Source: a virus
Direction: 5' to 3' (one strand)
IMG/VR virus record: IMGVR_UViG_3300021364_000173
Coordinates: 1 to 23,961 of that record
DNA: 23,961 bases
The translations under genes were made by a program, and so were the position numbers. The notes under the pieces were generated by a model. It ran no database searches. It saw only the letters and a program-made list of their open reading frames with translations, and had not been told where the DNA came from. Numbering within the stretch: position 1 is the stretch's first letter; every line of letters starts with the position of its first letter. Below are positions 16,687-22,816 of this stretch, piece by piece.

Positions 16687-17169
16687 TTAGCCTACTTTCA
16701 TATTATTAAGATATTCTTTGTACGGTTGTAAATCATTTTCATCAATATAACCTTTTCTAATCATATGTTCTGCTTCCGAACCTACAATATATTTTTCACA
16801 GACAGGCTGGTAATTTTTAATCCTAGCTGCATTAATCTTAAACGTATCAGGTTTGTATCCTTCTGATGTCATTGGGTATACTAACTCATTAAACTCTGGA
16901 CGTCTTGGAGCTATATCTTTTGCAGCCTTACTAATCTCTTTAGCAGTAGGCCAGGTTCTACTTTCTAAGTTTGTAAGCAAAGCTTCCTCAAAATCTACAA
17001 ACCAATCTGTATATTGCCTGCTAGGAGCTAACTTAATAACCCTATCCACAAGAAACTGTGCTTCTGTTTTCATTGCATCTGTATTACCTTGAACGGCTCT
17101 AGGTGCATTTAACCTGGCTAACAACTTCATTGTATTGTTTCGTAATTCATCATTTCTTTGATTATTCAT
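16687..17169 (-). CDS. Hypothetical protein in replication operon (160 aa)
   Basis: A mostly helical, charged protein: MNNQRNDELRNNTMKLLARL, a block around residues 30-90 with FLVDRVIKLAPSRQY and TDWFVDFEEALLTN, and RTWPTAKEISKAAKDIAP. It then ends in IVGSEAEHMIRKGYIDENDL. I recognise no catalytic motif, and there is no Walker A. Because it lies directly downstream of the replication initiator, overlapping it by 8 bp, a helicase-loader or initiator-partner role (as lambda P accompanies O) is the natural hypothesis, based on position only. The intrinsic terminator follows 54 bp downstream. Confidence 0.65.
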   Translation of the reverse strand: MNNQRNDELRNNTMKLLARLNAPRAVQGNTDAMKTEAQFLVDRVIKLAPSRQYTDWFVDFEEALLTNLESRTWPTAKEISKAAKDIAPRRPEFNELVYPMTSEGYKPDTFKINAARIKNYQPVCEKYIVGSEAEHMIRKGYIDENDLQPYKEYLNNMKVG

Positions 17170-17842
17170 AGCTTAATCCTAATTCCTCTAATGTTTTTTT
17201 CATATTGTTTTCTTGTGGAGCCTCTATTGGATCATTCCATCTCCTACCATTCAACCAAGTAGTCGGATGTGGAATAAATTTCTTTTCTTTGTCTTTAACT
17301 GCTTCTGCATATTTTTTTGTTGCTTCAATTAGAACATCAAACTCTACTTCAAGTCTTATCTTTGGAAACAATGTGGCCGCTTTATATTTTTCAACTTTTC
17401 TTGGATATGTGTCCCACCACTCATCAAATTCTGTAATAGTTTTATGAGTAGTATTCATGTATATATTGTTATTACTTCCAAGGTTATTACTTCCAAGGTT
17501 AGTGTCGCGTTTTGCCATAGGGGGGTGTTGCATTTTGCTACTAGGGTCTATGTCGTTTTGCGACATGGGGTCTTCTAAATGCAGAACATAAAAATTAGAT
17601 GTAAAACCACCGTCTTCTCGCCACCGCCTTTGCCTAGAAATTAAACCTTTTGTTTCTAAAGTGCATAGATGTCTATGAACTGCGCTTTTTTCCATTTCGC
17701 AACATTTAGATAATCTACTTATGCTTGGAAAGCACTCGCCTGTTTCTCCATTATGGTGATCTGCCAACCAATACAAAACAATTTTTGTTGCTGGCCTTAA
17801 ATATGGCTGTTTCATTGCCAAAGCTGTCATATAGTGTGACAT
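17162..17842 (-). CDS. Phage replication initiator, winged-helix (lambda O-like architecture)
   Basis: Residues about 15-85 form a winged helix-turn-helix (IVLYWLADHHNGETGECFPS, ISRLSKCCEMEKSAVHRHLC, TLETKGLISRQRRWREDGG) of the HTH_36/replication-O kind. Residues 91-126 are a polar linker, including a repeated LGSNN. Residues about 138-210 are a conserved C-terminal domain (FDEWWDTYPRKVEKYKAATL, KKFIPHPTTWLNGRRWNDP) found in primosomal and replication proteins of prophages. The linker DNA carries repeats that could be the origin. The start ATG 17842 has AAAGGG nine bases upstream. It probably binds the origin and recruits the host helicase. It is the second gene of the leftward operon, after the repressor. 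Confidence 0.8.
   Translation of the reverse strand: MSHYMTALAMKQPYLRPATKIVLYWLADHHNGETGECFPSISRLSKCCEMEKSAVHRHLCTLETKGLISRQRRWREDGGFTSNFYVLHLEDPMSQNDIDPSSKMQHPPMAKRDTNLGSNNLGSNNNIYMNTTHKTITEFDEWWDTYPRKVEKYKAATLFPKIRLEVEFDVLIEATKKYAEAVKDKEKKFIPHPTTWLNGRRWNDPIEAPQENNMKKTLEELGLSYE
17468..17497. repeat. Perfect 15-bp tandem duplication next to the candidate iterons
   Basis: The unit GTTATTACTTCCAAG occurs twice in a row (17468-17482, 17483-17497), encoding a repeated LGSNN in the linker of the initiator. It lies 5 bp from the first 23-bp unit and beside an AT-rich stretch (about 17445-17475) that could serve as an unwinding element. Confidence 0.75.
17503..17571. repeat. Three 23-bp direct repeats (candidate iterons) inside the initiator gene
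   Basis: Three units at 17503-17525, 17526-17548 and 17549-17571 share the core TTTTGC at 17510, 17533 and 17556, exactly 23 bp apart. A GGG at the same offset follows, and 13 of 23 positions are identical in all three. Because 23 is not a multiple of three, the units fall in different codon frames, so the repetition acts at DNA level. The third unit contains a perfect 6-bp-arm inverted repeat (ATGTCG at 17550-17555, CGACAT at 17561-17566). Confidence 0.7.
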
Positions 17843-17933
17843 TTATTTTTACCCTTTCTGTCCAAATAACTTTCGGTTATCTTGACGTTGTTATGTGCTG
17901 CTGCCTGTGGCACATTCCTTTTTACCTCACACT

Positions 17934-17967
17934 GGCCCACATTAATTTGTGGGTCATTTTTTATTTG
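17934..17967 (+). terminator. Terminator-like hairpin with T-tract, plus strand
   Basis: GGCCCACA (17934-17941) pairs with TGTGGGTC (17948-17955) around a 6-nt loop, and a run of six T follows after one A. One pair is G-U in plus-strand RNA but would be C-A in minus-strand RNA, so the structure favours a plus-strand transcript. No plus-strand gene precedes it, so it may end an antisense transcript, or the inverted repeat may serve another purpose such as protein binding. It lies just beyond the stop of the repressor gene. Confidence 0.4.
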
Positions 17968-18179
17968 TCAGTGAGAAAGTAATCAGACAACACTTTCACA
18001 GTTTCATAGTTAACATTATCTATCGCCCCATCACGCACACGATATACTGTATGGCGTGACAAACCAGTAGCATTACAAACCTGTACAGGACTTTTGTTTT
18101 TCAACGCATCCTGTATTTTACCTAATGATAACAGGTCTGGTTCTAACCACTCCTTGTATTCTTTTGAAACCACTTTCAT
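17961..18179 (-). CDS. Small HTH repressor (Cro/CI-type, 72 aa)
   Basis: The start is set at ATG 18179, which has AGGA five bases upstream; longer frames to 18245 would run into the divergent promoter. Residues about 17-68 form a helix-turn-helix: LSLGKIQDALKNKSPVQVCN, ATGLSRHTVYRVRDG, then NYETVKVLSDYF. The pattern 'xVxxxTGLSxxTVYRxRxGxxxNxxYETVxxLSDYF' is typical of small phage and prophage repressors of the Cro/CI superfamily. There is no cleavage or dimerisation domain. It is the first gene of the leftward operon and faces the rightward operon across overlapping promoters, so it probably controls both. Confidence 0.8.
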   Translation of the reverse strand: MKVVSKEYKEWLEPDLLSLGKIQDALKNKSPVQVCNATGLSRHTVYRVRDGAIDNVNYETVKVLSDYFLTDK

Positions 18180-18206
18180 TTTTTTCCTTTTTTTGTTTAT
18201 TATGGG

Positions 18207-18238
18207 TTGCATATAAGATACTAATGTGTATATTGCAA
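18207..18238. promoter_or_regulatory. Overlapping divergent promoters (repressor/recombination switch)
   Basis: Plus strand: TTGCAT (18207-18212) and TATATT (18229-18234) are spaced 16 bp. Minus strand: TTGCAA (18238-18233) and TATATG (18215-18210) are spaced 17 bp. Each promoter's -10 overlaps the other's -35, so they face each other and cannot both be occupied. The plus promoter leads to the gene at 18265 and the minus one to the repressor at 18179. The two TTGCA arms form an imperfect inverted repeat that could be the operator. Promoter calls are by eye. Confidence 0.55.
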
Positions 18239-18264
18239 GATACAAAATAAAACAAGAGGTAAAA

Positions 18265-18456
18265 ATGGATAAACTATCATTACATCGTATAAATCACGTT
18301 TCTCATTTGTTTATAACATCATCTGTATACAAAGTATTGGTTGATACAAACATTGCACCGACAGATGCAAAAAAGATTATTGATGCAATAGAAAGCGGCA
18401 TCAACAGTGCTAACGCATATGATGAAATGTTACAAATGGAGTTAAATAATGCCTAA
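18265..18456 (+). CDS. Small hypothetical protein, first gene of rightward operon (63 aa)
   Basis: The start ATG 18265 has AGAGGT four bases upstream. An ATG 13 codons further upstream lies inside the promoter region and is rejected. The protein (MDKLSLHRINHVSHLFITSS, then YKVLVDTNIAPTDAKKIIDA, IESGINSANAYDEMLQMELN) is helical and slightly acidic, with no motif I can name. As the first gene next to the switch it could be an early regulator, such as an anti-repressor or Cro-like partner, but I see no helix-turn-helix. Its end overlaps the next start by 8 bp. Confidence 0.65.
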   Translation: MDKLSLHRINHVSHLFITSSVYKVLVDTNIAPTDAKKIIDAIESGINSANAYDEMLQMELNNA

Positions 18457-19404: not shown

Positions 19405-19789
19405 AATACAAGTTTATGTAAGAGATGGGAAACTATTGCCTGTCTCTCAATATGATGCTGAACAACTAGAAGACGCTAAACAAGGTCAAGCCTACAACTT
19501 GCAAGCAACAGGTAAAAGGTCAAACCCTCACCATAGTATGTATTGGTCTATACTTAGAAATACTTGCAAAGCTACTGGACGCTGGCCTACAGAAAAACAT
19601 TTGCACAGCGAATTAAAGTGGGCTTGCGGTTATGTCAAAATGCGTTGGAACTCATTAGCCAGCGCCCATATGAGAATTATGGATAGCATATCTTTTGACG
19701 ATATGAGCCAGCAAGAATTTAATCAGTATTTTGAATTGTCTATGCAAAAACTATCAGAAGCCGTAGGTTATGATGTCCTCGAAGTATGA
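19388..19789 (+). CDS. DUF1367/NinB-like recombination-region protein (133 aa)
   Basis: I set the start at ATG 19388, with AGGA eight bases upstream; an ATG nine codons earlier has no ribosome-binding site. The sequence has SKIQVYVRDGKLLPVSQYD, the block GQAYNLQATGKRSNPHHSMY, WSILRNTCKATGRWPTEKHL, HSELKWACGYVK, then SISFDDMSQQEFNQYFELSM and AVGYDVLEV. The order 'G.L.P...D.....G......KR..xxHxxYWxxL......P....LHxxLKxxxG' fits DUF1367/NinB-like proteins in the nin-type region of lambdoid phages, which act with recombination enzymes. The exact family is uncertain. It overlaps SSB's last 17 bp. Confidence 0.65.
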   Translation: MKSHSKIQVYVRDGKLLPVSQYDAEQLEDAKQGQAYNLQATGKRSNPHHSMYWSILRNTCKATGRWPTEKHLHSELKWACGYVKMRWNSLASAHMRIMDSISFDDMSQQEFNQYFELSMQKLSEAVGYDVLEV

Positions 19790-20201
19790 TGGCATATATA
19801 AAAAAGGTGATGAGCAAAGTGAGCAAGAGATCAGCGCCTATTTAGGCTACAGATGGAAGTGTGAAATGATTAAACAAGGTCATTACGATAAGTTTGATTA
19901 CATCGCAAAAAGAAACAACAAGATTTCAGCATTTGTAGAAATTAGGTGTCGATCTCACCCTTACGGAAAATTTCCTGATTGTTTTGTATCATTAACTAAA
20001 AAAATTAGAGCAGACGAATTAACCAGGGCAACAGGTTTAATGTGTTTTTTTGTTGTTTCATGGGATGATCAAATTGGTTACGTTAATCTTGACCAGCATT
20101 TCGATTTAACAAGAAGCGGTAAGAAATGGAGCCGCAGAGATAACCCAGAAATATCAGAATTATTGTGTAAAATACCAATAGAAAGTTTTGTAAAATTATG
20201 A
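19773..20201 (+). CDS. Putative PD-(D/E)XK-type nuclease (142 aa)
   Basis: Residues about 17-30 carry an N-terminal helix (SEQEISAYLGYRWKCEMIKQ). FDYIAKRN with D42 follows, then a strand with SAFVEIRCRS (E56, R58), SLTKKIRADELTRATGLMCF (helix) and FVVSWDDQIGYVNL. This layout (Asp, ExK-like strand, helix, strand) suggests a PD-(D/E)XK fold such as VRR-NUC or small phage resolvases, with Arg in place of the usual Lys. The fold is inferred, and the changed ExR makes activity uncertain. Two ATGs (19770 and 19773) are possible; the second has AGG at five bases and is used. It overlaps both neighbours. Confidence 0.5.
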   Translation: MSSKYDGIYKKGDEQSEQEISAYLGYRWKCEMIKQGHYDKFDYIAKRNNKISAFVEIRCRSHPYGKFPDCFVSLTKKIRADELTRATGLMCFFVVSWDDQIGYVNLDQHFDLTRSGKKWSRRDNPEISELLCKIPIESFVKL

Positions 20202-20527
20202 GTAATTTAGCTAACAAACCACCGTTAGGACAAAAAGAACCTAAGAAAAAAAAGGATGCAAAATTTCTTAACAAAGTGCGTCAACAAAAATGCTGCGTCT
20301 GCGAAAGGTTTGGTGAAGCACAAATATCACCAACAACAGCACATCATCCTATCCATGATAGGCATGGTTTCATTAAAAGGTCAGATGGTGAAGCTATCCC
20401 CCTCTGTGAAGGACACCACCAAGGTTTATGGGATAACTCCAAGATTGCTATACACAAAGAACCTAAGTTATGGCAAGAGACATATGGCTCCGATTGGTCT
20501 TATTCTGTCCAAGAAACAGATAAGTAA
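20198..20527 (+). CDS. HNH-like (DUF968-type) nuclease protein (109 aa)
   Basis: After a basic N-terminus (KEPKKKKDAKFLNKVRQQK), cysteines at 32, 33 and 35 (KCCVCERFG) precede TTAHHPIHDRHGFIKRSDGE, then IPLCEGHHQGLWDNSKIAIH and LWQETYG. The pattern 'CxxC...xAHHxxHxRxGxxKxSDxxxIPLCxxHHxxxHxxP..W...YG' matches DUF968-type HNH proteins of phage recombination regions, with C35, H49/H50, H53, C70 and H73/H74 as likely zinc or catalytic residues. It probably cuts DNA structures during recombination. Its last 28 bp overlap the end of RusA on the opposite strand. Confidence 0.75.
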   Translation: MSNLANKPPLGQKEPKKKKDAKFLNKVRQQKCCVCERFGEAQISPTTAHHPIHDRHGFIKRSDGEAIPLCEGHHQGLWDNSKIAIHKEPKLWQETYGSDWSYSVQETDK

Positions 20528-20940
20528 AGCACTGGCCCTTTTTCTGGGTGACAAAACACTTTTTTAGCGTTGACGCTGGTTACTTGCGCATCAGTGTGAT
20601 ACACAGCGCCCTCAAGCCCATCCATAGCAGCTTTTAGTATGTTATCGACATCAGGCTTAGAAGCAGGCAATATCGCACCATATTCGGCCTCTAAACGCTT
20701 GACCTTGGGCCATGACTTAGGAATATCCATAAACGCTATCATTTCTAGGTGACAGAACTTGCTAATTACTTCAAGCTTCATTTCTTTCATCTTTGCCCAG
20801 GCTGCTGCTTGGATACGACTTTCGTAATCTTTTGTTTTCTGTGGTGTATAGGTGTGACCGTTACGAGTAAAACGTGGCCTACCTTTACCTATTGGTTGTC
20901 CAGATATTTCTATCTCAACCTTTTTTAATATCCTGCTCAT
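20500..20940 (-). CDS. rusA: Holliday-junction resolvase, RusA family
   Basis: The start is set at ATG 20940 (146 aa); longer frames to 21054 would cover the promoter region. The sequence has ISGQPIGKGRPRFTRNGHTY, TPQKTKDYESRIQAAAWAKM, then SKPDVDNILKAAMDGLEG and YHTDAQVTSVNAKKVF. D97 and D99 of KPDVDN, K103 and D117 correspond to the catalytic D70, D72, K76 and D91 of E. coli RusA. It resolves four-way junctions made by recombination or replication. It is odd that it lies on the minus strand between two plus-strand operons; its 3' end overlaps the HNH gene. The ribosome-binding site is weak (AAAG). Confidence 0.9.
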   Translation of the reverse strand: MSRILKKVEIEISGQPIGKGRPRFTRNGHTYTPQKTKDYESRIQAAAWAKMKEMKLEVISKFCHLEMIAFMDIPKSWPKVKRLEAEYGAILPASKPDVDNILKAAMDGLEGAVYHTDAQVTSVNAKKVFCHPEKGPVLYLSVSWTE

Positions 20941-22387: not shown

Positions 22388-22816
22388 CTATAACCAAGCT
22401 CTAACAGAAAAACATGGGCAAGCTTTAGAAGCATACTCATTATGACCAGACACTTTGGTAATGCTTGGGAACTTCTTCTTGTAATCTTCTATTAGCTGAC
22501 GCAACGCTGCTTCTTGTTCTGGCGTAAAGTTGTCAGAAAATTCTCCGTCAGCAATGCCGCCTCTACCACCAACTAGGCTTACCCCTATGGTAGTCTTGTT
22601 TCGGCCCCCAACGTGCGCCCCAGAGCGCTCTACAGGGCGTCCGTAGCCTACTGCACCATCCCTATGTATAACGGCATGATAGCCTATGTCAGACCACTTG
22701 CGCTCTTCAACGTGCCATCTGCGTATTTCTGCAACGACATCATCAACAGAATTGTTTACCATCCAGCTAGGGTTTGTTGCCGTAGCATGAATAATTATTT
22801 CGTCTATTTCTCTCAT
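22388..22816 (-). CDS. Endolysin, N-acetylmuramoyl-L-alanine amidase (T7 lysozyme-like)
   Basis: This is an Amidase_2-type zinc amidase that cleaves peptidoglycan between N-acetylmuramic acid and L-alanine. It lines up with T7 lysozyme: IIIHATAT (H10 zinc ligand), IGYHAVIHRDG (with Y46), SGAHVGGRNKTTIGVSLVGG, FSDNFTPEQ, and SGHNEYASKACPCF (H125, K131 and C133). H10, H125 and C133 are the expected zinc ligands. It has no signal peptide, so it would reach the wall through the holin. It is shorter than T7's 151 residues because the C-terminal end is missing. It overlaps the holin gene (ATGA). T7 lysozyme also inhibits T7 RNA polymerase, but no such polymerase is seen here. Confidence 0.9.
   Translation of the reverse strand: MREIDEIIIHATATNPSWMVNNSVDDVVAEIRRWHVEERKWSDIGYHAVIHRDGAVGYGRPVERSGAHVGGRNKTTIGVSLVGGRGGIADGEFSDNFTPEQEAALRQLIEDYKKKFPSITKVSGHNEYASKACPCFSVRAWL

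Follow-up and report, generated by a model that had tools for sequence, protein, structure and literature searches.

The region 17427-17571 of the window (the whole 23,961-bp stretch of marine phage DNA analysed here, whose record is probably a fragment) is very probably a lambda-like phage replication origin located in the linker-encoding part of an initiator gene, with iterons bound by the winged helix of the initiator and AACC boxes in or beside a DNA unwinding element. We infer this origin function from sequence features. Origins inside initiator genes are a known kind, represented by lambda and by the RepA_N plasmids, and few of them have been dissected. The window initiator belongs neither to the lambda O Pfam family nor to RepA_N, though its mode of action would be like both. 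What is new, as far as the searched open-access literature shows, is the presence of constant AACC boxes and of a helix/half-site code across the whole initiator family. The open-access papers searched held no description of AACC boxes and searches by box sequence returned unrelated papers only (mostly primer lists as far as judged), although an earlier mention is possible.

Iterons within the initiator gene

The features on which this reading is based are as follows.

17162..17842, minus strand: O-like replication initiator of 226 amino acids (PF13730 HTH_36; PHROG 270/391)
17669..17692, minus strand: codons 51-58 (EKSAVHRH) in the predicted recognition helix, which covary with half-site type across relatives
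17549..17565, minus strand: iteron 1 in gene order, TGTCGCAAAACGACATA, hyphenated palindrome in codon frame 1
17526..17542, minus strand: iteron 2, AGTAGCAAAATGCAACA, hyphenated palindrome in codon frame 0
17503..17519, minus strand: iteron 3, TATGGCAAAACGCGACA, hyphenated palindrome in codon frame 2
17491..17500, minus strand: AACC box 1, AACCTTGGAA, inside a 15-bp duplication, with frozen codons in 57 representatives
17476..17485, minus strand: AACC box 2, AACCTTGGAA, 15 bp from box 1, with frozen codons
17427..17476, no strand: candidate DNA unwinding element, with the lowest nearest-neighbour stability of any 50-bp stretch in the 24 kb

Pfam scanning of the initiator at E<=0.1 identified HTH_36 (PF13730; E=4.6e-12, 46 bits against a cutoff of 25) along with other winged-helix families, and gave no match to PF04492 (Phage_rep_O) or to the RepA_N family. 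PHROG comparison placed the protein with phrog_270, a replication initiation protein (E=2.4e-40), and with the O-like phrog_391 (E=5.5e-18). A PDB sequence search returned two weak, uninformative matches only, and a megablast search for near-identical phages was without match. The AlphaFold2 model showed a winged helix at residues 1-88 with the predicted recognition helix at 52-64, a linker at 95-127 that is predicted to be disordered (pLDDT below 50) and, starting at residue 132, a C-terminal domain made of helices. Fold-level matches to this model were 4pql and 5kbj, which we take to be RepA_N structures, and 2v79, presumably the DnaD N-terminal domain. The linker is encoded almost exactly by the iterons and boxes, and the repeats thus lie between the winged-helix and C-terminal domains, as had been proposed from the sequence in an earlier note on this DNA.

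That note had also described three 23-bp repeats out of codon phase and had argued for selection on the DNA itself, and our analysis upheld these points. The units at 17503-17525, 17526-17548 and 17549-17571 share 13 of 23 columns in all three copies, TTTTGC starts at 17510, 17533 and 17556, and the period-23 score is nowhere higher in the 24-kb window. The iterons occupy all three codon frames, and their observed identity was reached by none of 2000 codon-preserving permutations of synonymous codons within the initiator gene. The earlier note overlooked the palindromic iteron nature of these units, as well as the duplication beside them as a conserved DNA element. Read on the minus strand, the units are 17-bp palindromic iterons of the GTCGC-AAAAC-GAC type with an A/T-rich centre, and they are imperfect palindromes in which 3-4 of 6 arm pairs match. 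The palindromic direct-repeat triplet score was 22.7 versus 17.8 +/- 1.3, a value that 1 of 1000 synonymous resamples reached.

Half-sites and recognition helix among relatives

Relatives comprised 118 unique initiator genes of roughly 36-70% protein identity, collected by IMG/VR scans with several family members as queries; since they were found via conserved N-terminal peptides, close family members are favoured. Three hyphenated-palindrome iterons formed the best triplet in the same linker in 118 of 118 relatives. Their linkers hold out-of-frame repeats that vary in sequence while the protein domains are conserved, which is the outcome that had been put forward earlier as support for an origin. 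Iteron spacing is 22/23 bp in most relatives and 23/23 bp in the clade of the window and a few others, so that copies fall in two or three codon frames; spacing deviates by 1-2 bp in L044, L028 and L062, and a few relatives are at 21-25. Synonymous resampling of 98 distinct linkers gave a median z of 5.4, with 98% above all 40 resamples. Depending on the phage, the half-sites are TGTTGC/TGTCGC, TGCGCA, ATGGCA, TAGGAA, TGTCAA, TGTTCG or TATGTA. A genome scan for hosts found relatives at only three loci in cellular genomes, all of them in Rhodobacterales, which suggests a roseobacter-type host for the window phage.

Half-site type followed the recognition helix. Among 69 non-redundant members, distance across residues 51-58 correlated with half-site distance at r=0.76, and at r=0.75 once distance in the C-terminal domain and in the remainder of the winged helix had been partialled out; none of 2000 permutations reached this correlation, which, as the permutation test carries no explicit tree model, is strong evidence of recognition and not proof. 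Residues 51-58 were the best co-varying 8-residue stretch, with 51, 53, 56 and 57 as the best single positions. Half-site distance showed no correlation with the rest of the winged helix (partial r 0.06) or with the C-terminal domain (0.02). The wing lies between the helix and the iterons in the gene and is nevertheless uncorrelated, indicating that simple linkage is not the explanation. Helix types pair with half-sites as follows: SRRSVE with GCGCA, SKR(A/S)VQ with GGCA/TGCA, D(K/R)ST(I/V)(I/V)R with GTTGC/GTCGC, (S/T)DRS(V/I)R with GGAA, SRQSIIN with GTCAA and GKTALVG with GTTCG, a code that appears close to one-to-one. As the covariation with half-sites is confined, within the protein, to the recognition helix, the iterons are very likely bound by the winged helix of the initiator. 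The natural initiator/iteron pairs, more than 100 in number, would make the code by which a large family of phage initiators recognises DNA readable from sequence, and this code would predict for which phages and phage-plasmids origins are shared or mutually excluded.

AACC boxes and the candidate unwinding element

The 15-bp direct duplication beside the iterons, reported earlier as a neighbour of the repeats, is exact at 17468-17497 (plus 4 bp) and encodes NLGSNNLGS, which has the look of a peptide repeat. Codons were counted in 57 representatives below 85% identity. Within box 1, N115 is AAC in 57/57 and L116 is CTT in 50/54, and substitutions at L116 (Leu to Gln or Pro) retain the leading C; within box 2, N120 is AAC in 56/56, L121 is CTT in 49/51 and G122 is GGA in 53/53. 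Invariant residues elsewhere in the gene have saturated codons (N31 31/25; L44 all six; G66 all four), so that conservation here acts on the DNA, in the form of a tandem AACCTTGGAA box. Since the boxes stay constant while the iterons change, they are not what the recognition helix reads. We propose an AACC-box origin group, defined by two or more AACC boxes in tandem, at intervals of 10-18 bp, immediately behind the iterons; the window belongs to it by its boxes at 17491-17500 and 17476-17485 with their frozen codons. The boxes offer a sequence handle on strand opening, the least understood step, and their role is cleanly testable because they can be recoded without protein change.

The AT-rich stretch that had been noted beside the repeats was found at 17427-17502 (26% G+C). 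It contains the 50 bp with the lowest stability in the whole window, which lie on the C-terminal side of the iterons and overlap the box array at its 3' end. Across the window family the 30 bp of lowest stability in the gene begin 0-40 bp beyond the first box in 56 of 90 genes, and in a GC-rich rhizobial-type family they begin 0-20 bp from the first box in 37 of 40. These positions fit an unwinding element at or beside the boxes. Cumulative GC skew, which had been suggested as a check, has its minimum at 18.0-18.5 kb, ~0.7 kb away and exactly at the gene-orientation switch; owing to this coincidence and to the probably fragmentary record, the skew is unusable as origin evidence.

Other O-like initiators, fetched by protein similarity, extended the range of the boxes. 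In phages of Vibrio, Salmonella, Pectobacterium and Aggregatibacter the initiator iterons are followed by AACC motifs in tandem (AGAACCAGTCACTCT..GAACCAGTCAA), with copies in different codon frames, and the same order is seen in RcDormio (AACCTTGTAAGAGAAGAACCAGTAAG), cyanophage Pam5 and Arthrobacter phage RedFox. Box-bearing initiators, in which the boxes are often out of frame, span phages of alpha- and gammaproteobacteria, of a cyanobacterium and of Arthrobacter, together with phage-like plasmids; a gene of this kind with both iterons and boxes is present on circular plasmids of Sulfitobacter, Arsenophonus and Microbulbifer. Of the 54 unique genes in the family retrieved with the RcDormio query, 52 have at least two boxes; three boxes, at spacings of 13 and 12 bp, are typical. 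Translations of the O-like initiators showed the boxes together with three or more mutually unrelated C-terminal domains.

When viral DNA was searched blindly for three AACCNGTAA-type boxes, at least 120 stretches matched. Assigned to genes by their start motif and by visual inspection, about 34 of 80 retrieved stretches fell in winged-helix initiators directly after iterons, and the remaining matches (about half) were mostly in-frame peptide repeats of tail-protein type. Because about half of its matches are other repeats, the box pattern by itself is not diagnostic of an origin; when it follows iterons in a winged-helix gene, the sequence comparisons indicate that it does diagnose one. The false positives in box searches include AACCAGTAAATG-type repeats in L424-L503 (e.g. 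L431, L437, L459, L474), which are in-frame 12-bp peptide repeats (NEPVNEPV) and apparently the antisense of tail-protein repeats. The palindrome score exceeded all shuffles in about 25 of 44 non-redundant box-bearing genes and is no general detector, because it misses arrays with asymmetric repeats; by this score no iterons were found in the O-like genes of RcDormio, OctDB2 and Aleemily. Four tandem AACCGGTAAAT units were also observed at L425:211-258, outside long ORFs and with no winged-helix initiator beside them in the part seen. The L461:9314 region (minus strand) encodes a DnaD-like, apparently Firmicutes-type initiator with seven AACC motifs spaced exactly 11 bp, from which the AACC boxes may extend to phages of Gram-positive hosts.

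Proposed initiation, alternative readings and neighbouring genes

Comparison with lambda supported the earlier view that the arrangement is the same as that of ori-lambda. The layout held when checked on the annotated lambda record, as iterons in mid-gene, an AT-rich tract on the C-terminal side and an overlapping downstream gene are common to both; the initiators differ in Pfam family, lambda O being of PF04492 type and the window protein of PF13730 type. Lambda iterons follow the same grammar, being hyphenated palindromes of about 18 bp with an A-tract centre (TCCCTC-AAAAC-GAGGGA) spaced 20/24/23 bp, and our palindromic-array score found them at codon 120. Lambda differs in having four iterons in comparison to three and in lacking the tandem AACC boxes, and the 160-aa protein downstream in the window cannot be recognised as lambda P. 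In lambda the iterons, inverted repeats located centrally in gene O beside an AT-rich tract, are bound by O dimers (PMC7466680, PMC5043065), while plasmid iterons bind monomers (PMC5043065). RepA_N initiators of the pSK41 type share with the window phage an origin inside rep and a winged-helix N-terminal domain, which binds Rep boxes central in rep, the central region being a linker only (PMC5703833); the window initiator resembles them at the level of fold only, without Pfam membership, and the host phylum is different. The pPR9/pUSA03 hybrids carry a PF13730 N-terminal domain as the window initiator does, but on a staphylococcal plasmid and with a RepA_N C-terminal domain; in pPR9 this N-terminal domain was exchanged together with the origin region, and the mini-replicon replicates autonomously (PMC5703833). 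RK2 oriV/TrfA likewise combines a winged-helix initiator with iterons, although TrfA has two winged helices and the iterons bind monomers. TrfA-type Rep proteins bind one strand of the unwinding-element repeats in a sequence-specific manner, and changes in these short repeats abolish origin activity (PMC4081077), which provides the model proposed here for the AACC boxes.

The genes around the initiator are relevant to both the mechanism and its alternatives.

16687..17169, minus strand: 160-aa ORF overlapping the initiator 3' end in the position of lambda P, a possible helicase loader from position only
17961..18185, minus strand: small Cro/C1-type HTH regulator upstream of the initiator (phrog_18104 transcriptional regulator, E=2.7e-5)
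19770-20201, plus strand: PDDEXK_14 nuclease ORF (Pfam)
20500-20940, minus strand: RusA resolvase ORF (Pfam), conserved in 42 relatives' loci
22388-22816, minus strand: possible amidase-type endolysin ORF, from reading of the sequence

In the mechanism that we infer, winged-helix dimers of the initiator would bind the three 17-bp hyphenated palindromes, with recognition helix 52-64 reading the iteron half-sites. Binding would bend and strain the DNA so that the AT-rich stretch melts at and beyond the tandem AACC boxes, which would serve as an invariant signal within or next to the unwinding element and hold or organise the open strand. The boxes would most likely be bound single-stranded by the initiator, as with TrfA and RepE, or else by some replication partner that is itself conserved. 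Recruitment of the host helicase would then fall to the C-terminal domain, perhaps together with the overlapping 160-aa protein. Extended to PF13730 phage and phage-plasmid origins in general, this becomes a bipartite scheme to which we give an even chance: rapidly changing iterons would be recognised by the winged helix, with a simple code that is nearly one-to-one, and slowly changing AACC N1-2 G(T/G)AA boxes (2-4 copies at 11-16 bp) would mark the unwinding element and be read by a constant partner, probably the initiator on single-stranded DNA, in phages whose hosts belong to several bacterial phyla.

A tentative alternative, less likely than the initiator itself, is that the iterons are origin sites while the boxes serve a host or other non-initiator factor, such as an architectural protein or the helicase/primase machinery, and are not a single-strand target of the initiator. 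This would agree with the constancy of the boxes while half-sites change, which the recognition helix does not account for, and with the presence of boxes alongside at least three unrelated C-terminal domains, no single one of which can explain them. An equally conserved host factor would, however, be required in hosts from several phyla, and plasmid winged-helix initiators themselves bind unwinding-element repeats (PMC4081077).

Readings in which the repeats are not an origin appear far less probable. The sites lie inside an operon that runs on into the terminase genes, and winged-helix proteins are commonly repressors, so the repeats could be an internal operator by which the initiator blocks its own initiator/terminase operon, with the origin elsewhere. 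We consider this improbable, as it leaves the AACC boxes and the low-stability stretch unexplained, and as the mid-gene position is conserved in phages with different downstream genes and also recurs in plasmids with replication genes nearby; operator and origin roles could nevertheless coexist. About 1 kb downstream lie the terminase large-subunit gene and a small ORF placed where a small-subunit gene would be expected, which would be compatible with a packaging (pac) site, a still more remote explanation given that the half-sites vary in step with the recognition helix of the initiator itself and that the same arrangement is found where the neighbours are DnaB-like helicase genes and not terminase. 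The slightest chance of all falls to protein-level linker repeats or slippage products without DNA function. Linkers are often of low complexity and NNLGSNNLG is an in-frame repeat, but the iterons stand in different codon frames, the 13/12-bp box spacing of the rhizobial relatives breaks frame and no synonymous shuffle in 2000 matched the array; together with the frozen box codons, these codon data rule the protein-level reading out.

Among the neighbouring genes, the 17961..18185 regulator matched Pfam HTH_26 below the cutoff and is kept upstream in 26 loci. A sigma-70 promoter scan of 17100-18400 found none, fewer than in shuffles (5.5 expected by chance), and thus located no promoter for transcription across the origin; expression signals of the initiator region may be of another type. 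A protein similar to the 160-aa ORF lies just downstream on the same strand in 49 of 83 relatives' loci. The 160-aa protein has a confident helical model, and comparison with lambda P and other known loaders gave no PHROG, PDB-sequence or significant fold match (lambda P fold at rank 3, E=1.7, not significant). The gene after the initiator is swapped between families at the same position (window 16687-17169; L002-L046), the types being a 160-aa NNQRNDELKN type, a 168-aa MTHEERIRVI type and unrelated 130-138-aa types; on sequence comparison, these are possible interchangeable helicase loaders without known family. Finally, the initiators of ST64B and mEp460 (L350:2501-3319, L357:2501-3319) end in IPTGFRG/IPAGFRG, which we take to resemble the tail at the C-terminus of DnaT, a primosomal protein of E. 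coli, and this suggests a DnaT-like helicase-loading tail.
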